The translations under genes and the position numbers were made by a program. Positions 25,570-41,443 of a stretch of DNA of 41,443 nucleotides are shown in pieces; position 1 is the first letter of the stretch, and each line of letters starts with the position of its first letter. This DNA comes from Acidobacteriota bacterium (GTDB lineage: Bacteria > Acidobacteriota > Terriglobia > UBA7540): positions 1-41,443 of the forward strand of contig PLSX01000020.1 of the NCBI GenBank assembly GCA_003165315.1, given 5' to 3'. The notes below the pieces were generated by a model. It did no database searches, was not told the origin of the DNA, and saw nothing but the letters and a program-made list of their open reading frames with translations.

Positions 25570-26100
25570 TCAGGCGGAAAGGTTCCAGGAGCGCGGCTCC
25601 ATGTCTGGCGAATCCGCGTAAGGGGATTTCTTCGCCGCCGGCTCTGAGGGGAAATTCGGATTCCCGCGCTGCTCCTCAGAAGACATTTTCGGAAGGCTCC
25701 CACCGCTGGCGGACTTCGCACTAGAGGCAGACGGACGGTGATCCGCTTCGTACCATGCTTCCCGAACAGTGGCAAACTTCTCAACCAGCAAGCGAAGCAC
25801 TTGCGGGGAGTTTTCAATGTTGGCCTTCAGCATCTGCGCGCGAGCATAGACGTACAACGCCTTAAGCGTCTTGGCCACTTCGCCCCCAGCCTCAAAGTTC
25901 AGGGTCCCCTCGAGTTGAAGGATAATCGCCTGGGCGCGAGTCAGATGGGTGCATTTTTCGGAAATATCTCGAGCCTCGATCGCAACCGCCGCCCGCTGCA
26001 TCGCGGCGATGGCGCCGTCGTAAAGCATGACGACCAAGCCCAGGGGCGTCGAGCCCTGGACCGAGAATTGACGATAGGTATTAAGGGCCGGGTTGTTCAT
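25570..26100 (-). CDS. fliS: Flagellar export chaperone FliS, with long tail
   Basis: The flagellin-specific secretion chaperone. The first 120 residues show the family pattern: NTYRQFSVQGSTPLGLVVMLYDGAI at the N-terminus (the YR and LYDGA motifs) and helices ending in REAWYEA. The protein is 176 residues, about 50 longer than usual. The tail is Ser/Pro/Lys-rich and looks disordered. Its ATG overlaps the fliD stop as ATGA, so the two are translationally coupled. It should bind the C-terminus of the flagellin encoded upstream and hold it for export. Confidence 0.92.
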   Translation of the reverse strand: MNNPALNTYRQFSVQGSTPLGLVVMLYDGAIAAMQRAAVAIEARDISEKCTHLTRAQAIILQLEGTLNFEAGGEVAKTLKALYVYARAQMLKANIENSPQVLRLLVEKFATVREAWYEADHRPSASSAKSASGGSLPKMSSEEQRGNPNFPSEPAAKKSPYADSPDMEPRSWNLSA

Positions 26101-27632
26101 GACGATGAACTCGATGAGGGATTGAGAGCGCTCAATTGACTGTTGATCTGTTGGAGTGTCTGGGGCAGTTGCTCGAGCGTCGTGTTGATGGTGGTGTATT
26201 CCGCCATCAGTTGCGTCTGGGTGTTCTGGAGTTGTTGCTGGAAATCACTGATCTGACTGTTCAGGTCGGTCACTTGCGAATTGATGCCGTTGATGTCCAG
26301 GCTCAGCGGACCGGTGACTGGATCGGTCAGGGAGGTCAGCGCGTTGGTCAGCGTCTGCCCAACGCCATCCATGGACTGGAACAGGTTCTGGACGGCGGAA
26401 AAGTTGTTTTGCAGGGCGTTGTTCAGAGTCGTGCTGTCCACCGACAAGGTGCCGTCATCCTGCATGTCAATCCCAATCGATTGCAAATTGACGGCGCCGT
26501 TGTTTCCGGACATGCTGGAGCTGAGCGCCGACAGCAACTGCTCCTGCAGGCTGTCAACCGTGGAATCGCCCGATAAGGTGCCGGCCGCCCCCGTGCTGCT
26601 GTTGGTTTGCAGGCCGGAATTAATCGCCTGGATCAAAGTGTTCCAGCTCGTGACGAAATTGTTGATGTCGGTCGCCACCCCCGTCAGGTTGGGGGAGATT
26701 TGGAGGGTCACCGGGTTGCTCGGCTCCGCGGCGGAGGTCTGGGTTACACCCGACAAAGTCAAGGTCACTCCCGGAATAACCCCCGTCACCGTATTGCTGG
26801 CGCTGTCAATCGGGATGCCATCCACGGTGAGCGAGGCGTCCTTCCCATCCACCGCATCGGTGAAGCCCATGCCGTTGCCATTCGTCCCTGTGGTATCGCT
26901 CGAAAGGGTGATTTCGCCAGCCGCACCGGAAGTCTGACTCACCAGGGCCAGGCGGGAGCCGGAACTGTCGTTGATCACCGAGGCGTTGACCCCGAGATTT
27001 TGATTGTTGATGTAAGTCGCGAGACCCGTCAGCGTGTCAGTGTTGTCCGTGCTGTCGACGGGGATGGTCACCGCCGTATTTGAGCCCACTTGGAGTTGGA
27101 AGGAACCCGTGGGGAGCGCGGCGGTGGCCGACGAGAAGGAGGCGGAATAATCCGCGGAGGTGGTGGCGAGGTTCTGGACAGTAATCGTGTGCGTGTCCGC
27201 CTCCGTCCCATTGGCCGCCGTGGCGCTCACCACATCGTTGTTCGAGGAACTCACCGTCAGCGCGCTGAAATCCCCGGTAAAATCGGTCAGAGGCTCCAAG
27301 CTGCTCTGAAACGCCGTCAAGTTGGTTTGCAGGCTTTGCAGGGCGGAGATCTGGGAGTTGTCTGCGGACACCTGGGCGTCCATGGTTTCCTCGGGCTGGG
27401 CATCGGCCATCAGGATGGCGTCCACCGTCGAGGTCACGTCAATGCCGCTGCCGGACGTGTTGGTGGCGGAATTGATGATGGCATTCGCGGCGTCCTGGAG
27501 CGCTCCCGTGGCGCTCGAACTCGTCGAGTTGGAATTGGATGCACTGGATTGCCCCAGAAGCTGGGCCAGCGACTCGTTGGTGGAACTGGTACTCAAACTG
27601 GAGAGCAGCGAACCGATGGAACTCGTACTCAT
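26097..27632 (-). CDS. fliD: Flagellar filament cap protein FliD (HAP2)
   Basis: A 511-residue filament cap protein. FliD_N follows a Ser/Thr/Asn-rich head: GSGIDVTSTVDAILMADAQPE, then SQISALQSLQTNLTAF. The middle has flagellin-IN-type repeats (GVIPGVTLTLSG), and FliD_C ends in a coiled-coil (SQISDFQQQLQNTQTQL) with a Ser-rich tail. The N-terminal Ser/Asn-rich leader of about 55 residues before the conserved GIDV motif is longer than typical. The ATG at 27632 has AAAGGAG upstream, so an in-frame start 42 bases earlier is rejected. A sigma-28-like promoter lies about 115 bp upstream. Confidence 0.92.
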   Translation of the reverse strand: MSTSSIGSLLSSLSTSSTNESLAQLLGQSSASNSNSTSSSATGALQDAANAIINSATNTSGSGIDVTSTVDAILMADAQPEETMDAQVSADNSQISALQSLQTNLTAFQSSLEPLTDFTGDFSALTVSSSNNDVVSATAANGTEADTHTITVQNLATTSADYSASFSSATAALPTGSFQLQVGSNTAVTIPVDSTDNTDTLTGLATYINNQNLGVNASVINDSSGSRLALVSQTSGAAGEITLSSDTTGTNGNGMGFTDAVDGKDASLTVDGIPIDSASNTVTGVIPGVTLTLSGVTQTSAAEPSNPVTLQISPNLTGVATDINNFVTSWNTLIQAINSGLQTNSSTGAAGTLSGDSTVDSLQEQLLSALSSSMSGNNGAVNLQSIGIDMQDDGTLSVDSTTLNNALQNNFSAVQNLFQSMDGVGQTLTNALTSLTDPVTGPLSLDINGINSQVTDLNSQISDFQQQLQNTQTQLMAEYTTINTTLEQLPQTLQQINSQLSALNPSSSSSS

Positions 27633-27938
27633 TCCCCTGGCTCCTTTTGACCCCGGCAGCAGGTGCGGGGCCAACCGTCCGCGTCTTATCCCCTTGGGGC
27701 CGGATAAGTTCGTAGACCTCGAAAACAGGCCCGCACTACCTTCCCTATCGGCAAATTTGGGAATTCCTTGAGTCCGACGGTGGATTATGGATTGCCCCCC
27801 GACGGTCGTGGAGGGGAAAGCGAAAGATCATGTTCGGTGGGATTCAAAGCCCGGGTGCATGTGGCCCGGTTCGCTCCGCAGGAACACCAACGGCTTGAAA
27901 TGACAGACGCCTCGGACCGGACGGTCGCCGGCCTCCCC
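27633..27938. other. 306-bp gap between flaG and fliD with fliD promoter
   Basis: It contains the sigma-28-like fliD promoter (27745-27771). The rest (27780-27938) shows no gene and no convincing terminator. Confidence 0.45.
27745..27771 (-). promoter_or_regulatory. Sigma-28-like promoter of fliD-fliS
   Basis: On the minus strand TCAAGGAA, 11 bases, GCCGATAG. The -10 element matches 7 of 8 bases of the FliA consensus GCCGATAA and the spacer is exact. The -35 matches 4 of 8 of TAAAGTTT. Confidence 0.6.
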
Positions 27939-28274
27939 CTACGACTCCACGTCCACACCGTGAGCGCTCAAATCCCCGACAAGCGGTAGGTTCAGATTCT
28001 CCCCAATGGCGCGCAGGGCTTCCGGGGGAATCTCAAACAAAACGTCCCCGGTGCTCTGATCGACAAACTCGTAGTAAACCTGGTGCTGGCTATCGATGCG
28101 CATGTCGGTACTGAATTGGGAGGCGGAAGCAGCGGCAGGGGCAGACGGGGAATCGCTCGACGGTTTGGCGGCGCTGGCGGGCGCCGGATTCGAGGCATAA
28201 GCGGACTGGTCCGGGAATGCGGGTTTCTCGGCGCTTGCGACTTGCTGAATCAACAGGTCTGGGGAGGTACTCAT
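27939..28274 (-). CDS. flaG: FlaG-family flagellar protein
   Basis: 111 residues. The C-terminal half is FlaG-like: RIDSQHQVYYEFVDQSTGDV, followed by FEIPPEALRAIGE, the pattern of a two-stranded turn followed by an IPPE helix. The N-terminal 50 residues are Ala/Ser/Pro-rich and unstructured. FlaG proteins affect filament length and sit between flagellin and fliD in many genomes, as here. A terminator-like hairpin separates it from fliC, and GGGTGA about 8 bases before the ATG is a modest ribosome site. Confidence 0.82.
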   Translation of the reverse strand: MSTSPDLLIQQVASAEKPAFPDQSAYASNPAPASAAKPSSDSPSAPAAASASQFSTDMRIDSQHQVYYEFVDQSTGDVLFEIPPEALRAIGENLNLPLVGDLSAHGVDVES

Positions 28275-28299
28275 GACCGTTCACCCAAAAAGAGAACTG

Positions 28300-28326
28300 C
28301 GGAGGGGACCGTGAGGGTCCCCTCCG
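28300..28326 (-). terminator. Terminator-like hairpin after flagellin gene
   Basis: CGGAGGGGACC and GGTCCCCTCCG form a perfect 11-pair stem around a 5-base loop, 21 bp after the fliC stop. On the minus strand a T-rich stretch (TTCTCTTTTT) follows about 5 bases later. It probably ends most fliC transcripts and lets some read into flaG. Confidence 0.7.
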
Positions 28327-28347
28327 TCATCAATTGCCCTGCAGCCA

Positions 28348-29583
28348 CTACTGGAGCAGCTTTAGGACTGCCTGTTCTTGCTGGTTGGATTGGGCGAGAG
28401 CCGCAATGCCCGTCTGTTCGAGGACCTGGTACTTGGACATGTTGGCCACCACCTGCCCCATGTTTGCGTCCTGAATACCGCTCAGGGACGAGGACAGGTT
28501 TTGCGAGGTGTTGTTCATAACGGCGACCGCCGCGTTCATCTGATTGATGCCTGACCCGATGGCACCCCGGTCCGCGGCCACCGTGGAAATGGCCGACCCG
28601 ATGGCGGTCAAAGCAGTCGCTGCATCGACGGAACTGCTCAGATCAACTCCCGCCGCACCGCCGCCGAGGAAGCCGGTATTGCTGGTGGCAACAGTGCCGT
28701 GCGCCGGGGTCGCCAAATTCAAAGCGACCGCCACAAAGTTGCCGGTATGGTTGCCGGCCACTCCGGTGCCGGGTGTGGTGGCTTGGATTTCCGCCGAGCC
28801 GCCATTAACCCACGTAATGGTTGCCAGGGGATTGGCCACTGTGCCCGTTCCAATGGTGCTCCCCAGGTCGGCGGGAGTGCCTGCCACTGCCGATTGCAGG
28901 TTTTCCAGGGTATCCTGCACGGTGTTGCCGATCACCACGTCGTTGGCGTTGTTGGCGTTGCCCGCGGCCACAAACGTGTAAGTGTCCTGGCCAATTTGCA
29001 AGGTGTCCGCGGCCGCCGGGTTGGCGGTCAGGACCACAGTGGCGGAGGCCGTGGTGCCGAAACCCAACGACGTGGAAGTCAGGGTGGGCATATTGACGCT
29101 GATTGTGGGGCCGTTGGTTTCGTCGGTTTGCGAACCGTCACTGAGGAACACCTGGAGGGCGGCTCCCGAGAAGACCGAGGTGTTGTTGTAAGTGGTGTTC
29201 GTGCCAATCTGGTTGATTTCGGTCGAAATCGAGCTGAATTCATTCTGCAGGGCGTTCTGCTGGGACGAGGTAAGCCCAGTGTTAGCCGCTTCCGTCGCCA
29301 GGGTTACGGCGCGGTTGAGCAGGGTGGTTACCTGGCTCAGGGCGCCGTCGGCGGTCTGCAACATACCCACGCCGTCGGTGACATTCTGCGCGGATTGGGT
29401 GAGGGCGGAAATGTTCGCTTGCAACCCGTCGGCAATGGACAAGCCGGCCGGATCATCCGCACCGGAGTTGATCTTGGAACCCGAAGACAATTGGAACAAG
29501 GTATTTTGCAAATTCGAGTTGGTCATCGCCAACTCGTTCTGCGCTGCCAAGGAAGGGATATTACTTAAAATGCTCAGACCCAT
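28348..29583 (-). CDS. fliC: Flagellin (filament subunit)
   Basis: A 411-residue flagellin. The conserved N-terminal D0/D1 region runs to about residue 150: ILSNIPSLAAQNELAMTN, LSSGSKINSGADDPAGLSIA and LNRAVTLATEAANTG. The C-terminal D1/D0 ends in GIAALAQSNQQEQAVLKLLQ. Between them about 150 residues form the surface-exposed domain. This includes a stretch with DTYTFVAAGN and IGNTVQDTLENLQSAV that resembles a module found in some phage and surface proteins. The ATG at 29583 has GGAGAGGAG upstream; an in-frame start 54 bases earlier is unlikely. A near-perfect sigma-28 promoter is 125 bp upstream. A terminator follows. Confidence 0.95.
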   Translation of the reverse strand: MGLSILSNIPSLAAQNELAMTNSNLQNTLFQLSSGSKINSGADDPAGLSIADGLQANISALTQSAQNVTDGVGMLQTADGALSQVTTLLNRAVTLATEAANTGLTSSQQNALQNEFSSISTEINQIGTNTTYNNTSVFSGAALQVFLSDGSQTDETNGPTISVNMPTLTSTSLGFGTTASATVVLTANPAAADTLQIGQDTYTFVAAGNANNANDVVIGNTVQDTLENLQSAVAGTPADLGSTIGTGTVANPLATITWVNGGSAEIQATTPGTGVAGNHTGNFVAVALNLATPAHGTVATSNTGFLGGGAAGVDLSSSVDAATALTAIGSAISTVAADRGAIGSGINQMNAAVAVMNNTSQNLSSSLSGIQDANMGQVVANMSKYQVLEQTGIAALAQSNQQEQAVLKLLQ

Positions 29584-29707
29584 GTGAATCTCCTCTCCGT
29601 TTTGGTATCCGTCTTGGGCCGCAGAACCCTGGGCCATGAGGAGCGTCTTTCCAGGAGCCGGTGGTTCTTCTTTCCATCCGACGGAACCATTTCTCAGTCA
29701 CTGACCC

Positions 29708-33940: not shown

Positions 33941-34720
33941 TTGGACAAGAGTAGTTTGGGGGGAGTGCTGATCGCGGTCGTCGGGATCCTGGCAGGCTTG
34001 CTGCTGGAGGGCGGAAGGCTCTCGCAGATCATCCAACCGACGGCAGCCATGATCGTTTTTGGCGGGACCATCGGTGCTGTCATGTTGCAGTTTCCCCTCA
34101 GCATCGTTCTTGCCAGCTTCAAACGATTAGGGAATGTCTTTTTCGATTCGCAAGGTGACCCGCAAGAACTTGTCAAAGAAATTGTCGGCTTTGCTCATAA
34201 GGCCCGTAAGGAGGGCATTGTGTCACTTGACCGTGACCTGGAAAATGTCAAGGAACCCTTCCTTCGTAAGTCCTTGATGCTGGCTGTGGACGGCACTGAA
34301 CCGCAGGAACTTCGCAAGATGATGGAACTCGAACTCGACAACCAGGCCGAGCACGAAGAACGCATCCCGCAGGTTTTCGAAGCGGCGGGTGGATTCTCCC
34401 CCACAATTGGGATCATTGGGGCGGTCCTCGGGCTCATTCAAGTCATGCAGCACTTGGATAACATCGATGAAGTCGGGCGTGGCATCGCGGTGGCTTTCGT
34501 CGCCACCATATATGGTGTGGGCGCTGCTAACCTGCTTTTCCTGCCTTCTGCCGGGAAGCTCAAGATTCGCATCCGGACCGAGCACCAGATGCGGGAGATG
34601 ATGCTGGAGGGTGTGATCTCTATCCTGGAGGGGCTGAACCCCCGGATGGTCGAGACCAAGCTCCAAGGCTTTCTGGCGGATTCCGCCACACTAGAGGGAT
34701 CAAGAGAGTCAAACTCATGA
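33941..34720 (+). CDS. motA: Flagellar stator protein MotA
   Basis: A 259-residue inner-membrane stator subunit. Four hydrophobic segments are visible: GVLIAVVGILAGLLLEGG, TAAMIVFGGTIGAVMLQFPL, AAGGFSPTIGIIGAVLGLIQV and IAVAFVATIYGVGAANLLFLP. A large cytoplasmic loop (ARKEGIVSLDRDLENV) would contact FliG. The start is a TTG at 33941, with AAGGGGA about 9 bases upstream. It overlaps motB by ATGA, so the two are coupled. With motB it forms the proton- or sodium-driven stator. Confidence 0.95.
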   Translation: MDKSSLGGVLIAVVGILAGLLLEGGRLSQIIQPTAAMIVFGGTIGAVMLQFPLSIVLASFKRLGNVFFDSQGDPQELVKEIVGFAHKARKEGIVSLDRDLENVKEPFLRKSLMLAVDGTEPQELRKMMELELDNQAEHEERIPQVFEAAGGFSPTIGIIGAVLGLIQVMQHLDNIDEVGRGIAVAFVATIYGVGAANLLFLPSAGKLKIRIRTEHQMREMMLEGVISILEGLNPRMVETKLQGFLADSATLEGSRESNS

Positions 34721-35523
34721 GCCGAAGGAGAAGAATTGCCGAGCATGTGAATCACGAACGTTGGTTGGTCTCCTACGCAGACTTCATCACGCTTTTATTT
34801 GCTTTCTTCGTAGTCCTTTTTTCCTCCTCTCAAGTGGACAAGCGCAAAGTGGGAAAGGTCTCGGTGGCGATGCAAGAGGCCTTTCAACAAATGGGTGTTT
34901 TCCAGACGGCAAATTCACGTGCTCCCCTGGTTACGGCCGATCCCCTTCCGTCGCAAGACATACAAATCATTGAAAGCAGGAAAGGGATTTCCGACCAGGG
35001 GAGGATGGCGCCACCCCTTGAAAAGATGATGGGCTCCCCAACCGTCCCGAATGATCTGGGTACCGTGCAAAAAGAACTTGCCCGTGCCCTGGCACCACAG
35101 ATTCAACGACGCGAAGTAGTGCTGACGCCAACGGGCGAAGGGTTGGTAATTAGCCTGAAGGAGATTGGGTTCTTCGAAAGCGGGTCGGCCGAGCTCCGGG
35201 CAACCTCCGAAGCCGCGGTGCAGCGGATGGCCGAAGTTCTAGGAGCGCAAACCAATAATATTCGGATTGAGGGTCATACGGACAAGATGCCCATTCATAA
35301 TGCTCAGTTTACTTCCAATTGGGAGCTTTCCACCGCACGGGCTACCGAAATGATCCGGCTGTTCATTACCCGTTACAACCTGCCGGCCACACGCCTTTCC
35401 GCCGCCGGGTATGCGGAATATCATCCAGTTGCGGACAACAACACACCTGAGGGCCGAGCCCAGAACCGGCGGGTGGACATCGTTATTCTCGCCTCCGCTC
35501 CCCAAAAGGCTGAAAGGCAGTAA
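34717..35523 (+). CDS. motB: Flagellar stator protein MotB
   Basis: 268 residues. A short basic cytoplasmic end is followed by one membrane helix with the ion-binding Asp22 in SYADFITLLFAFFVVLFS (Asp32 of E. coli MotB), then a plug region and an OmpA-like peptidoglycan-binding domain (IRIEGHTDKMPIHNAQ, NWELSTARA, GRAQNRRVDI). The ATGA overlap with motA is typical. The tyrosine next to the aspartate (YAD) is common in proton-type MotB and does not by itself decide the ion. Confidence 0.95.
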   Translation: MSRRRRIAEHVNHERWLVSYADFITLLFAFFVVLFSSSQVDKRKVGKVSVAMQEAFQQMGVFQTANSRAPLVTADPLPSQDIQIIESRKGISDQGRMAPPLEKMMGSPTVPNDLGTVQKELARALAPQIQRREVVLTPTGEGLVISLKEIGFFESGSAELRATSEAAVQRMAEVLGAQTNNIRIEGHTDKMPIHNAQFTSNWELSTARATEMIRLFITRYNLPATRLSAAGYAEYHPVADNNTPEGRAQNRRVDIVILASAPQKAERQ

Positions 35524-35818
35524 GCGAAGCATGGCGGGTGAGAGGGGGAATTACATACGCGCTCTATGGATTATTCCCCCGTCCTATTACGATCAACCGT
35601 GAAGGTGTGCTCTTCGACTCTTGGAATCATCGAACGGAGTGGAGCTTCATCCCAACAATCCACCCGCCCGGCACGGACACATTGATACTTCAAGGGGGCT
35701 GCCTCCAGAGAGACTATGATCTGATTGCTTTGTGTTCATGCTGCACTCCACGGACTGGGAATCGGCCTCATGTTGTGCCTCTTAATTGCCGATAGAACGA
35801 AGTGGTCCAAGGCCTGAT
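35524..35818. other. 295-bp gap between motB and the HDOD gene
   Basis: A GGGGGAAT/ATTCCCCC inverted repeat with a 21-base loop follows motB by about 24 bp. It could be a weak terminator, but no T-run follows. The rest holds only the promoter-like element at 35768-35795. Confidence 0.35.
35768..35795 (+). promoter_or_regulatory. Weak sigma-28-like promoter before the HDOD gene
   Basis: TCATGTTG, 12 bases, GCCGATAG. The -10 matches 7 of 8 and the -35 5 of 8, with one extra spacer base. It is 23 bp upstream of the ATG. Confidence 0.35.
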
Positions 35819-36712
35819 ATGACGCCCACACTACGAGAGCTCATTCGCGAACGAGTTGAACGGTTGAATTCCATCCCCACGGTTCCAGCCATAATTCGCC
35901 CCTTGTTGTTCTACCTTGAAAGGCCTATCGACCATGTCGAGGTGCAACGCATCGTCGACCTGGTTTCTTGCGACGAAGCAATTTCCGCCCAGTGTTTGCG
36001 GGTGGCCAATTCCGCCCTCTACTTTCAGTCCCGCGAGGTGAAATCCGTGCACGGCGCGATTGTCGTGCTCGGCGTGCGGCAAGTCCGTGAGATCCTTCTT
36101 TCTTGCAGCCTGCTCAATCTTCTACCCAAGCAAAACTGGGTTATTGATCCACTGGTCTTCTGGGAACATTCCCTGGGTTGCGGATTAGTAAGTCGTTTCT
36201 GTGCCCGCAAGGCACAATACGCGGAACCGGAACGCGCTTATCTGGCGGGGTTACTGCATGATCTGGGCGAATTGGTCAACATGATGTCTTTTCAGGAAGA
36301 ATTCCGCGCCGCAGCACAACTTGCCCGGTCCGACCAAATTCCACTGCATCGGGCGGAACGTTCAGCATTGGGCTTTACCCACTGCGACACTGGGAAAATC
36401 CTGGCTGAACACTGGCGCTTGCCGGAGGACATCACAGAAGTAGTGGAGCATCATCATGACGTTCAGCAGGCGAAGCTCCACCCTGTGCTGGTCGCCCTCG
36501 TCAGTTTGTCAGATCAACTCTGCCAAGAAAACGAACTGGGCTATGAAATCAATCAATCGCTCGATTGGAAGTTGGAGGAGGATCCATCTTGGGCAGTCTT
36601 GACGAGGGACTTTCCAACCCTCGCCAACGCTGAACCCGTCCGTTTCCTCACGGAGATGGAACAATTCATTCTGGAAGCACGCAAACTCGTGCGCTCCATT
36701 CTCCGGGCCTGA
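35819..36712 (+). CDS. HDOD-domain protein
   Basis: 297 residues. The HDOD (HD-related output) domain fills most of the chain: VERLNSIPTVPAIIRPLL, then CDEAISAQCLRVANSALY, and LAGLLHDLGELV with His147-Asp148 present, followed by VVEHHHD. Such proteins occur in signalling pathways, including chemotaxis and c-di-GMP responses, and most lack proven enzyme activity. The frame opens upstream at 35786, but the ATG at 35819 begins at the conserved helix. It lies between motB and cheA, so a motility-signalling role is likely but unproven. Confidence 0.85.
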   Translation: MTPTLRELIRERVERLNSIPTVPAIIRPLLFYLERPIDHVEVQRIVDLVSCDEAISAQCLRVANSALYFQSREVKSVHGAIVVLGVRQVREILLSCSLLNLLPKQNWVIDPLVFWEHSLGCGLVSRFCARKAQYAEPERAYLAGLLHDLGELVNMMSFQEEFRAAAQLARSDQIPLHRAERSALGFTHCDTGKILAEHWRLPEDITEVVEHHHDVQQAKLHPVLVALVSLSDQLCQENELGYEINQSLDWKLEEDPSWAVLTRDFPTLANAEPVRFLTEMEQFILEARKLVRSILRA

Positions 36713-37167: not shown

Positions 37168-39708
37168 ATGGACGACATGGATGACATAGTTAAAGATTTC
37201 CTCGTCGAGAGCAATGAGAACCTTGACCAGCTTGACCGCGATTTGGTGACACTGGAAAAGGATCCAACGGCCCGCGAGGTTCTGGCCAGCATTTTCCGAA
37301 CCATCCACACCATCAAGGGAACGAGTGGCTTCCTGGGCTTCTCCCGCTTGGGATCCGTTACGCATGTCGGTGAAAACCTCCTCAGCAGCATGCGCGATGG
37401 CCGCCTCAAGCTCGACGCGGAAATCACGTCAGCGCTCCTGGCGCTGGTCGATGCGGTCCGCCAGATGCTCGTCAACATTGAGAATTCGGGCCAGGAGGGA
37501 GAAGGAAACTACGATGCATTGATTGAAACGTTGACCCGCTTGCAGAAGGGTGAAAGGAATAAATCTGCTTCCGGATCATCAGCTTCGCCAGGTACCACTG
37601 CCATTCCAACGGCTTCCTGCCCTTCCCCCTTGCCTCCACGACCCGACCCACCGCCCCCTGCGATTGAATCATCGTCAGCCCCACCCGAACCCGTCGAAAC
37701 GAGAAATGACCCGGATGATCCCCTAGAAGTTGGACTGCATTTGGGTGAAATGCTGGTGCAAGCGGGTGAAACAAGTCCTTCACAGGTTCATGAGGCACTG
37801 AACCTCCAGCACGATGGGGATGTGCGCCGCTTGGGGGAAATACTGGTGGAAAAGGGGGCCGCCAAACCCGCTGCCGTACAGGAAGCTTTGCAGGGCCAGG
37901 CTGAAGCGCGTGCCTCAGCCCTATCAGAAAGCAACATCCGCGTCGACGTGGGGCTGCTCGATAAGTTGATGAACTTGGTTGGGGAGCTGGTCTTAGCTCG
38001 AAATCAGATCCTCCAATTCTCCTCGACCCAGCAAGACTCCACATTCCTGAACACGACGCAACGGCTAAACCTCATTACTACCGAACTACAAGAAGGGGTC
38101 ATGAAGACCCGCATGCAACCGATCGGAAATATTTGGAGCAAGTTCCCCCGAGTTGTACGTGATCTAGCCACTTCTTGTGGGAAACAGATTCGTTTGGAGA
38201 TGGAAGGCAAAGAGACGGAACTCGACAAAACCCTCATTGAGGCCATTAAGGACCCTCTCACCCATGTGGTCCGAAATTCGGTTGATCACGGCGTTGAGAT
38301 GCCTGAAAAGCGAGTGGCAGCGGGAAAGCCGGCAGAGGGACGCCTTTATCTTCGCGCCTTTCATGAAGGCGGACAGGTCAATATTGAAATCTCCGATGAC
38401 GGCGCGGGAATCGACATAGAGCGCGTCAAACAAAAGGCTCTAAATAAGAGTCTGATCACCCTAGACCAGGCGTCCCGCCTGAATGACCGCGAATTGATGA
38501 ACCTGATCTTCCTCCCTGGCCTCTCCACCGCGGAAAAAGTGACCAATGTTTCCGGTCGCGGTGTGGGCATGGATGTTGTTAAGACAAACATCGAAAAAAT
38601 CGGTGGGACAGTGGATATTCAAAGCCGCCTGGGTCATGGGACCACATTGAAAATCAAGATTCCTTTGACACTGGCCATAATTCCCGCCCTCGTCGTGACT
38701 AGCGGCGGCGATCGCTATGCCATTCCCCAGGTCAGCCTTTTGGAGCTCGTCCGCCTGGAAGGAGAGCAGGCTCGCAAAGGCATCGAGATGATCCACGGCG
38801 CGCCCGTGTATCGGCTGCGGGGAAAATTGCTGCCTTTGGCTTACCTGAATCAGCAGCTCTCGGTGGGCAAACGCAACGATGGAGCAAATCGGCATGTTCA
38901 GGCTGCCCAGACCACGCCCTCGTCTGCAGAGTCCACTACAGAGGGTACCAATCTCGTGCAAGGGACAGCAGCGGCCAATGCCGCCAATATCGTCGTATTG
39001 CAAGCGGATGATCGCCATTTTGGCCTTGTTGTTGACGAAATTAACGACACGGAGGAGATCGTGGTTAAGCCCCTGGGTAAACAACTTAAAGGAATCACAA
39101 CATTCGCGGGCGCAACTATCATGGGAGATGGTCAGGTAGCCCTGATTCTGGATGTTCTGGGACTGGCTCAACGTGCCAACGTGGTATCCGAGGTTCGAGA
39201 TCGGACCGTGAGCGAAAATACCGCGCCGACGGAATCACATAACGACGACGGAGAGTCGCTGCTTTTGCTGCGCGGACCGGACAATGGGCGGATGGCTATG
39301 CCCCTTTCCCTGGTGGCACGTCTGGAAGAGTTTAGCCGGAGCAGCATGGAAACAGCAGCTGGCAGGGACGTGGTCCAATATCGCGGTCAAATCCTGCCTT
39401 TAATCCACCTCTCGTCCGCAATTCCCGAACGGCGGGAAAAATCCCGCCGTGCGGACTCTTCTGCTCTAGATGCGGAAAACGAGAAAATTCAGGTCGTGGT
39501 CTACACGGATCAGGGCCGGAGTGTGGGCCTCGTTGTCGACCGCATCCTCGATATTGCACAACAGAAAATCAAAATTCAAAAACGATCGGGACGCCAGGGC
39601 ACATTGGGCTCAATGGTTGTGCAAGGCCGGGTAACGGAACTGCTCGATGTGAAAGGTATCATCCAATCAGCTGACGCCAGCTTCTTTGCGGAGCCCGCGG
39701 CGGCGTAA
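37168..39708 (+). CDS. cheA: Chemotaxis histidine kinase CheA, with extra domains
   Basis: 846 residues. Domains in order: HPt (1-125) with phospho-acceptor His47 in FRTIHTIKGTSGFLGF; a Pro/Ser-rich linker (130-185); two short repeats at about 190-245 (LGEMLVQAGETSPSQVHEAL and LGEILVEKGAAKPAAVQEAL), which look like the MshEN/GspE-N type; the dimerisation helices (256-320); the HATPase (355-500) with N-box HVVRNSVDHG, DDGAGID and GRGVGMD; and two CheW-like domains (about 505-665 and 695-840). No clear P2 CheY-binding domain is seen. AAGGGAGA precedes the ATG. cheW follows after 14 bp. It drives the receptor array that controls the flagella. Confidence 0.95.
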   Translation: MDDMDDIVKDFLVESNENLDQLDRDLVTLEKDPTAREVLASIFRTIHTIKGTSGFLGFSRLGSVTHVGENLLSSMRDGRLKLDAEITSALLALVDAVRQMLVNIENSGQEGEGNYDALIETLTRLQKGERNKSASGSSASPGTTAIPTASCPSPLPPRPDPPPPAIESSSAPPEPVETRNDPDDPLEVGLHLGEMLVQAGETSPSQVHEALNLQHDGDVRRLGEILVEKGAAKPAAVQEALQGQAEARASALSESNIRVDVGLLDKLMNLVGELVLARNQILQFSSTQQDSTFLNTTQRLNLITTELQEGVMKTRMQPIGNIWSKFPRVVRDLATSCGKQIRLEMEGKETELDKTLIEAIKDPLTHVVRNSVDHGVEMPEKRVAAGKPAEGRLYLRAFHEGGQVNIEISDDGAGIDIERVKQKALNKSLITLDQASRLNDRELMNLIFLPGLSTAEKVTNVSGRGVGMDVVKTNIEKIGGTVDIQSRLGHGTTLKIKIPLTLAIIPALVVTSGGDRYAIPQVSLLELVRLEGEQARKGIEMIHGAPVYRLRGKLLPLAYLNQQLSVGKRNDGANRHVQAAQTTPSSAESTTEGTNLVQGTAAANAANIVVLQADDRHFGLVVDEINDTEEIVVKPLGKQLKGITTFAGATIMGDGQVALILDVLGLAQRANVVSEVRDRTVSENTAPTESHNDDGESLLLLRGPDNGRMAMPLSLVARLEEFSRSSMETAAGRDVVQYRGQILPLIHLSSAIPERREKSRRADSSALDAENEKIQVVVYTDQGRSVGLVVDRILDIAQQKIKIQKRSGRQGTLGSMVVQGRVTELLDVKGIIQSADASFFAEPAAA

Positions 39709-40172: not shown

Positions 40173-40201
40173 CCAGGAAATCAAATCGGACGGAGGAAGA
40201 A

Positions 40202-41443
40202 ATGAAAAACGAACCCACTCTTAGAAAAAAAACCAAGGACTTGGACGAGTTGAGTGCCTTCGCGGCAGAATTGAGAGCAATGAGCGACGCGCACAATGCT
40301 GGGGACATCGATGTTGTCATGCCCGAGGAGAAGTTTGAGGGCATCTTTATGACGATGGCAAAGGGTATCAATGAAATGGTCAACGGCCATATTACCGTGA
40401 AGAAAAAGGCTATGGCTTGCGTCGCCGAGTTCGCCAAGGGGAATTACGACGCGGAACTCGAAAAGTTCCCTGGGAAAAAAGCGTTTATCAATGAAAATCT
40501 CGAACATCTGCGAGCTAACGTCAAGGCATTCATCGCCGATATGGAACGGATGTCCAAAGAACACAATGCGGGCGACATTGACGTCGTAATCCCTGAGGAT
40601 AGGTTTGAAGGCGCTTTCCGAATCATGGCCAAGGGCGTTAATGACATGGTCCTGGGCCACATCACGGTAAAGAAAAAGGCAATGGCCTGCATTGCAGAGT
40701 TCAGCAAGGGTAACCTTGACGCTGAACTCGAGAAATTTCCGGGGAAAAAGGTATTTATTAATGAAAACATTGAGGGTCTGCGTGCGGCAGTCAAAGCGCT
40801 GGTTACGGACGCGATCCTGCTCTCAAAGGCAGCGGTGGAGGGTAAGCTGGCGACTCGCGCCGACGCCTCCAAGCATCAGGGCGACTATCGTAAGATCGTG
40901 CAGGGGGTCAACGATACCTTGGACGCGGTCATCGGCCCTTTAAGGGTCGCCGCCAAGTATGTCGACCAGATCTCCAAGGGCGACATACCGCCCAAAATCA
41001 CGGACACTTACAAGGGCGACTTCAACGAGCTGAAAAATAATCTCAATACTTGCATCGATGCAGTCAATGCGTTGGTCGCTGATGCTGATCTGCTGTCAAA
41101 AGCGGCAGTGGATGGCAAGTTGGCGACACGCGCCGACGCCTCCAAGCACCAAGGCGACTACCGCAAGGTCGTACAGGGCGTGGACGATTGCCTCGATGCC
41201 GTCATTGGACCGCTGAACGTGGCTGCCAAGTATGTGAACCAGATCTCTAAAGGCGAAATCCCGGCCAAGATTACGGACACTTACAACGGCGACTTCAACA
41301 CCATAAAAAACAACCTCAATACCTGCATCGATGCCGTGAATGCGTTGGTGGCAGATGCAATGATGCTTTCAAAGGCGGCGGTGGAGGGTAAGCTGGAAAC
41401 CCGCGCCGATGCGTCAAAACACCAGGGCGATTTTCGCAAGATC
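40202..41443 (+). CDS. Poly-HAMP cytoplasmic signalling protein, probable chemoreceptor (cut by window edge)
   Basis: 414 codons are visible from ATG 40202 (AGGAAG upstream) to the end of the window, with no stop. There is no signal peptide or membrane helix. After 26 residues the chain is almost entirely repeats: two 90-residue units (from 27 and 117; AHNAGDIDVVMPEEKFEG, ITVKKKAMACVAEF) and then 91-residue units from 206, 297 and 388 (GKLATRADASKHQGDYRKIV, KITDTYKGDFNELKNNLN). Each unit seems to hold two HAMP-like domains, so about nine are visible. Such arrays occur in soluble chemoreceptors and in some histidine kinases. Following cheA and cheW, a receptor with a signalling domain beyond the window is most likely. 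Confidence 0.85.
   Translation, partial: MKNEPTLRKKTKDLDELSAFAAELRAMSDAHNAGDIDVVMPEEKFEGIFMTMAKGINEMVNGHITVKKKAMACVAEFAKGNYDAELEKFPGKKAFINENLEHLRANVKAFIADMERMSKEHNAGDIDVVIPEDRFEGAFRIMAKGVNDMVLGHITVKKKAMACIAEFSKGNLDAELEKFPGKKVFINENIEGLRAAVKALVTDAILLSKAAVEGKLATRADASKHQGDYRKIVQGVNDTLDAVIGPLRVAAKYVDQISKGDIPPKITDTYKGDFNELKNNLNTCIDAVNALVADADLLSKAAVDGKLATRADASKHQGDYRKVVQGVDDCLDAVIGPLNVAAKYVNQISKGEIPAKITDTYNGDFNTIKNNLNTCIDAVNALVADAMMLSKAAVEGKLETRADASKHQGDFRKI
40280..41443 (+). repeat. In-gene tandem DNA repeats (270-bp and 273-bp periods)
   Basis: The poly-HAMP gene carries two copies of a 270-bp unit (from 40280 and 40550) and at least two and a half copies of a related 273-bp unit (from about 40817, 41090 and 41363). 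Neighbouring units share long near-identical stretches, so copy number could change by recombination. Confidence 0.75.

Follow-up and report, generated by a model that had tools for sequence, protein, structure and literature searches.

HAMP modules are normally viewed as relays. Both poly-HAMP receptors and cytoplasmic MCPs that lack a sensory domain are already known, and in the available text of Airola 2013 (PMC3570549) canonical HAMPs, which carry a DExG motif and couple to a membrane segment, are distinguished from divergent HAMPs, which keep a single glycine and are packed in chains. The best match in both sequence and structure to the receptor studied here is Aer2 (McpB) of Pseudomonas aeruginosa, likewise cytoplasmic with concatenated divergent HAMPs. 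It differs in the haem PAS and five HAMPs described in Airola 2013 (PMC3570549), whereas no PAS is found in the 414 visible residues of the present protein or in its nearest relative, L031. That PAS is gas-sensing according to the same text, and the mention of Aer2 as a self-sensing array in an earlier, sequence-only reading of this DNA was therefore not borne out. FrzCD of Myxococcus xanthus is, in the accounts available, also a cytoplasmic MCP in which HAMPs connect a short N-terminus to the MCP domain; it has two HAMPs and a DNA-binding N-terminus, in contrast to the nine or more HAMPs and 17-residue tail of the present protein. The fungal group III hybrid kinases (Nik1, TcsC), as far as the consulted parts of the literature describe them, resemble it in not being membrane receptors and in having several HAMPs as their sensing module. 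Their output is a histidine kinase and receiver, and in TcsC 209 residues stand before the first HAMP, whereas an MCP output is probable here and the tail is short.

The window, by which is meant the whole stretch of DNA analysed (41,443 bases), is an entire contig (C200) of draft genome G000, which comprises 6.19 Mb in 285 contigs with a completeness of 92% and a contamination of 7%. Its features of interest are listed in Table 1. It can be observed that cheA, cheW and the receptor gene follow one another in that order on the same strand, with 29 nt between the stop of cheW and the ATG of the receptor. The receptor beside CheA/CheW described in the sequence-only reading is thereby confirmed, as is a genomic link to both genes, one of the criteria for an MCP. 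Farther upstream lie motA, motB and an HDOD gene (33941-36712), preceded on the opposite strand by fliS, fliD and flagellin (25570-29637).

Table 1. Features at the receptor end of the window (positions in the 41,443-base contig)
Feature	Coordinates	Strand	Basis or remark
cheA, 846 aa	37168..39708	+	Pfam: Hpt, dimerisation, HATPase and CheW-like domains
MshEN-like (c-di-GMP-binding type) domain in CheA, about residues 191-244	37738..37899	+	Between Hpt and dimerisation domain
cheW, 149 aa	39723..40172	+	Pfam CheW, E 1.1e-29
GGAGGA, likely ribosome-binding site of the receptor gene	40192..40197	+	Sequence
Receptor gene, first 414 aa	40202..41443	+	ORF from ATG 40202; 3' open, contig ends inside; headless poly-HAMP
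N-terminal tail, residues 1-17	40202..40252	+	Net charge +1; 11/17 identical in L031
Unit A1, residues 18-107 (90 aa), two HAMPs	40253..40522	+	Self-comparison, AlphaFold
Unit A2, residues 108-197 (90 aa), two HAMPs	40523..40792	+	Self-comparison, AlphaFold
Unit B1, residues 202-292 (91 aa), two HAMPs	40805..41077	+	Self-comparison, AlphaFold
Unit B2, residues 293-383 (91 aa), two HAMPs	41078..41350	+	Self-comparison, AlphaFold
Unit B3, residues 384-414, first HAMP only, cut by contig end	41351..41443	+	Self-comparison, AlphaFold

In the Pfam scan of the 414-aa ORF, HAMP_2 (254 bits, four stretches), HAMP_N3 (133 bits, two stretches), McpB_HAMP_2 (72 bits, two stretches) and HAMP (26 bits, cut-off 25) scored above their cut-offs, and no non-HAMP family did. 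Matches of MitMem_reg, TLN1-like_RS, SEP, DEK_C and TMV_coat to the arrays were set aside as helical-repeat noise, occupying no stretch of their own. Neither a membrane segment nor a sensory domain was found in the visible 414 residues, for which part the earlier description of a soluble protein with no recognised sensor holds. Comparison of the protein with itself gave peaks at offsets of 91 and 90 residues, corresponding to the double-HAMP units of 90/91 residues and two related types that had been proposed. Identity between A1 and A2 is 73% in residues and 69% in bases, between B1 and B2 86% and 78%, respectively, while the cut unit B3 shares 80% of its bases with B1 and 74% with B2. A search within the receptor gene for exact direct repeats of at least 21 nt returned none. 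At 69-80% DNA identity the units are thus not near-identical in DNA, contrary to the sequence-only reading, and a break of the assembly by near-identical DNA repeats is unsupported for this gene.

The array was modelled with AlphaFold, as the sequence-only reading had proposed, from a 51-row alignment comprising the window protein and 50 of 73 listed stretches. The model, with a mean pLDDT of 90.8 and a pTM of 0.56, displays nine connectors (residues 33-47, 79-90, 123-137, 169-180, 213-227, 259-272, 304-317, 350-364 and 395-409) joined by helices of 30-32 residues, the continuous joining helices being a mark of poly-HAMP proteins; residues 1-4 of the tail fall below a pLDDT of 50. The visible protein is accordingly predicted by the model to consist of eight complete HAMPs plus a truncated ninth, which agrees well with the roughly nine HAMP-like units first counted in the 414 residues. 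Nine units were also counted with HMMs, although these were built from an alignment that includes the window and are not independent. Among solved structures, only the Aer2 poly-HAMP entries 4i3m, 4i44 and 3lnr fall under a Foldseek E of 0.001 (E 1.6e-6 to 2.1e-5), the query being a monomer model whereas HAMPs are dimers. Their Z of 10.1-10.4 against the model lies in the range below about 13 that may reflect a common arrangement of long helices, but here the match by sequence agrees (phmmer, E 3.9e-18 to 6.2e-18). Entries such as PRC1 and dynein, ranking below the HAMP rows (VIA, Foldseek), look like common helical arrangements of this kind. A tree of 43 A-type units was also drawn, from which no claim is made.

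The junctions between connector and AS2 in the nine window units read FEG, FPG, FEG, FPG, HQG, YKG, HQG, YNG and HQG. The motif DExG is absent from all nine, while the glycine is kept in each, and on their sequence all the HAMPs of the window can be classed as the divergent, poly-HAMP type. It should be noted that one DExG occurs in the membrane-anchored relative L034 and none of exact form in L033; because the latter is also membrane-anchored, the motif is an imperfect marker.

The window protein was matched in 16 of the 61 genomes searched. Its nearest relative, L031:1537-3453 in genome G003 of the same genus, is 638 residues long and starts with MKNEPTL, as the window protein does. One A unit and one B unit are followed in it by more HAMP-like sequence and by MCPsignal at 404-570; apart from MCPsignal, its Pfam scan found only HAMP families and no PAS or other sensor, and no membrane segment was detected by a scan with a simple hydropathy rule. 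The frame allows upstream starts adding up to 54 residues, and the Pfam scan covered the 638-residue form. Since L031 ends in MCPsignal, an MCP output is favoured for the window receptor and a histidine kinase output disfavoured; the MCP end expected earlier is in this way supported by inference from the relative, and the window protein is in all probability a cytoplasmic MCP rather than a kinase. A PAS or globin domain farther on had been named as the finding that would speak against a sensor-free stack, and Pfam finds none in L031. For the same reason we consider it improbable that a sensor lies beyond unit B3, in the half that is missing. This arrangement would resemble the haem PAS of Aer2, which lies between HAMPs with three of them in front (Airola 2013, PMC3570549, as far as its text was available), and in relative L045 a PAS is matched at 660-701 with HAMP matches on either side, but L031 contains no such domain by Pfam. 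As regards the missing half itself, G000 yielded no other match to the window protein, nothing for PF00015 (MCPsignal) and nothing for CheB. In the same genus the gene order is cheA-cheW-mcp-cheB-cheR in L033 and L035, and cheW-mcp-cheB-cheR in L034, where cheW is not preceded by a cheA match. The missing matches in G000 are most simply explained if the remainder of the receptor and the genes downstream of it dropped out of the assembly.

Comparison with L031 also bears on how the frame evolves. Over 196 aligned codons pN is 0.124 and pS 0.693; as the two sequences differ at 69% of synonymous sites against 12% of nonsynonymous ones, the headless frame is under purifying selection. HAMP-like units number 5 in the whole of L031 and 9 in the half of the window protein that is visible, and a single A unit stands in L031 where the window has two, implying that unit number is variable, as anticipated, at least between species. 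The first part of this A unit is 81% identical to A1 of the window and 52% to A2, whereas the second part is 81% identical to A2 and 71% to A1, so that its junction looks like the product of recombination between A1 and A2. At its C-terminus L031 reads PTRLQ, which does not fit the pentapeptide x-[HFYW]-x2-[HFYW] and distinguishes it from those Aer2-like receptors with a C-terminal pentapeptide tether (96 of 130 in the part of the source available). In G003 the headless receptor is immediately followed by a 203-aa ORF (L031:3571-4182) with no convincing family match, which could be a partner.

Relatives in the genus and class differ chiefly at the front end. Within the genus, L033 and L034 have a 4HB head with membrane segments and L035 a protoglobin and PAS head, each by Pfam, and L036, whose ORF is cut, has two membrane segments; L032, of the same class, has a PAS head by Pfam. 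The first 200 residues of the window protein were matched in 22 of 399 sampled genomes of the class, and in the 6 of these 22 whose heads were checked by Pfam, protoglobin heads were found in G263, G334 and G328, PAS heads in G068 and G197, and two membrane segments with a PF00672-type HAMP in G265. The globin-coupled poly-HAMP MCPs of the class (L114/L133, L134, L120) share A-type HAMP units and an MCP end with the window receptor, the two A units of L133 being 67% identical to it over residues 15-197, but differ in the protoglobin head that precedes the first unit. Judged by domain assignments, the head is thus swapped among receptors on one HAMP chassis, being 4HB-transmembrane, protoglobin or PAS, or absent. 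In G306, on the same contig as L047 (Acidobacteriaceae), a further poly-HAMP gene (L137:5749-7679) directly follows cheA and cheW; it has no recognised head at its start and an early frame change, and the contig ends inside its array. PF00015 is present in 25 of the 61 genomes and in 5 of the 9 of the genus, with a maximum of two per genome (G007). In G003, which is 85% complete, L031 is the sole match, draft incompleteness limiting such receptor counts.

It follows with considerable confidence that the window receptor is a headless cytoplasmic MCP. If there is no head, the input can come from the stack or from the tail, or there may be none. We infer the following order of likelihood: the stack, then the tail, then a scaffold and lastly a hidden sensor. 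Taken as a whole, the favoured explanation, a headless cytoplasmic MCP whose stack reads a cytoplasm-wide condition, falls just short of an even balance of belief, and the component that makes the HAMP stack itself the reader of the signal is held more tentatively. According to this explanation, the visible protein would be the front part of a cytoplasmic MCP whose sensory head was lost or never present. Two chains would presumably pair to form a long rod of HAMP four-helix bundles stacked head-to-tail, at the far end of which the MCP signalling hairpin, an end seen in L031, would dock on CheW and CheA, with CheB and CheR resetting the receptor. Each HAMP would occupy one of two conformers of opposite output, so that the long stack may act as a balanced switch. 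A condition prevailing throughout the cytoplasm, such as pH, ionic strength or crowding, or temperature, would then tip the stack, changing CheA activity and, subsequently, flagellar behaviour. A stack of nine or more HAMPs is plausible as a balanced rod that sets the state of the MCP hairpin, because according to the available text of Airola 2013 (PMC3570549) the conformers adopted by Aer2 HAMPs are opposite in the signal they send.

Several precedents are consistent with sensing by the stack. In the accessible parts of the fungal literature, the sensing module of the group III kinases is made up of several HAMPs, TcsC is described as the osmotic pathway's major sensor, and deletion of all HAMPs from CaNik1p activates Hog1p without stimulus. 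For E. coli receptors, the HAMP is reported to be the site at which internal pH is sensed (PMC7542364, available in part). Other evidence points away from the stack: the region below the HAMP is where E. coli responses to non-ionic osmolytes have been mapped (PMC6062612), and TcsC, in the portion of its description available, needs the sequence before its first HAMP for the osmotic response, which speaks for the tail. Conservation of the HAMP units is no proof of sensing, because 4HB, globin and PAS heads precede the same units in relatives, and such arrays serve other outputs too, since the B units match the solved histidine kinase construct 9trk (E 2.9e-11). Furthermore, half of the protein is unseen, and L031 is not adjacent to cheA on its own contig and has fewer units than the window, all of which counts against the best explanation.

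In the second reading, which is possible though unlikely, the tail and first HAMP would be a docking site for a partner protein, a membrane-borne adaptor or DNA of the nucleoid, and the stack would only relay that event to CheA. The tail is conserved between the two species (Table 1). FrzCD offers a precedent, described in the part of the source available as a cytoplasmic MCP whose N-terminus binds DNA and is followed by two HAMPs, through which the affinity for DNA and the growth of oligomers are tuned, and the N-terminus of TlpT is reported to bind the ParA homologue PpfA (PMC3964821, available in part). The N-terminus expected of the FrzCD type is basic, disordered and DNA-binding. The tail of the window protein, however, with a net charge of +1, is shorter than the DNA-binding part of FrzCD before residue 31, and the tails of other headless receptors differ in sequence.

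That the receptor reads nothing is less likely again. As a signal-blind scaffold it would build the array and set the basal level of CheA, with input arriving elsewhere, e.g., as c-di-GMP on the MshEN-like domain of CheA. This domain, which the Pfam scan missed, comprises two 24-residue motifs with a 6-residue spacer, compared with 5 residues in the published pattern. NCBIfam NF053729.1 matches the window CheA at 36.3 bits (E 3.4e-9), just below the cut-off of 38, and the CheA of L033 (40.0 bits) and L035 (44.2 bits) pass, while that of L137 reaches 25.8 bits. A profile of four CheA inserts matched PilF (6f8l, E 3.8e-15) and, weakly, the c-di-GMP domain of MshE (E 0.017). CheA is named among MshEN partners in the available text of PMC5013675, so that the CheA-MshEN fusion is already known; our search found no literature test of its effect on chemotaxis. 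The scaffold is nevertheless at odds with several observations. The domain also occurs in the L033 and L035 operons with headed receptors and is therefore no substitute for a head, and the CheA near headless L050, L054 and L062 shows no match among the matches listed (22 of 22, 25 of 32 and 25 of 34, respectively). Moreover, under a relaxed form of the pattern of PMC5013675 (seen in part), both motifs are recovered in L033 and L035, neither in L137, and only the second in the window. Because its first motif, lacking the arginine and the hydrophobic pair, fails this pattern, c-di-GMP binding by the window CheA may be lost or weaker and the domain perhaps degenerate.

Headless receptors of this kind were also sought in a genome_contigs scan, in which the best 80 of 406 relatives, picked by likeness to the window, gave 77 loci titled as many bacterial groups and methanogenic archaea, the organism names being record titles, many of them of MAGs. 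After 98 ORFs were tallied and 34 cut by a locus end left out, 62 complete ORFs with an MCP domain were obtained from these best 80, 47 with and 15 without a membrane segment; having been selected for that domain, they are no independent evidence for an MCP end. Six of the 62 are clearly headless (L050, L054, L058, L062, L079 and L106), a share that is no unbiased frequency in a sample chosen by likeness to the window. Among the 15 ORFs without a membrane segment, L074 and L084 are probably headless, L037, L045, L066 and L067 contain PAS, and the N-terminus of L041 and L107 matches no assigned family. L105, listed alongside them, is a piece of a broken gene; like L100 it is a complete ORF without an MCP domain and stands outside the 62. 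Headless L050 (Spirochaetia) has the order cheA-cheW-mcp-cheB-cheR, as in L033; L054 (Acidobacteriaceae) and L062 (Bacteroidetes) likewise possess the full set of five genes, differently arranged, and L106 belongs to Methanolobus, an archaeon. Long arrays were also encountered: L074:4731-9431 (Methanomicrobiales) encodes 1567 aa with 24 HAMP-like units counted, an MCP end and no recognised sensor, and L066:4912-11616, an MCP of 2235 aa, combines an N-terminal PAS with 16 HAMP_2 stretches. Open frames of about 1,600-2,400 aa in G048:C2, G012:C137, G031:C443, G054:C151 and others match the B unit at about 18-29% identity; the genomes G012, G031 and G054 are without PF00015, and their long frames may be another poly-HAMP family, perhaps kinases. 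A limited literature search found no description of a long HAMP stack without a head as a receptor, perhaps the main one of a cell, and novelty is not asserted.

We consider it doubtful, although conceivable, that a stack-sensing MCP family extends over bacteria and archaea and that in this genus, through removal of a globin or PAS head, such a receptor may be the only chemoreceptor of the cell. The question of array sensing applies equally to the fungal group III kinases, in which the function of the HAMPs is still largely unknown according to the available text of the CaNik1p paper, and which are, in the accessible literature, required for the action of fludioxonil. The recurrence of headless receptors in other microbes makes stack-sensing testable, and the natural series of globin, PAS, membrane 4HB and no head on one chassis is a ready chimera set. 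With an input side that is all HAMP stack, in a receptor-poor genus, the present receptor would be a clean natural case for self-sensing by HAMP arrays.
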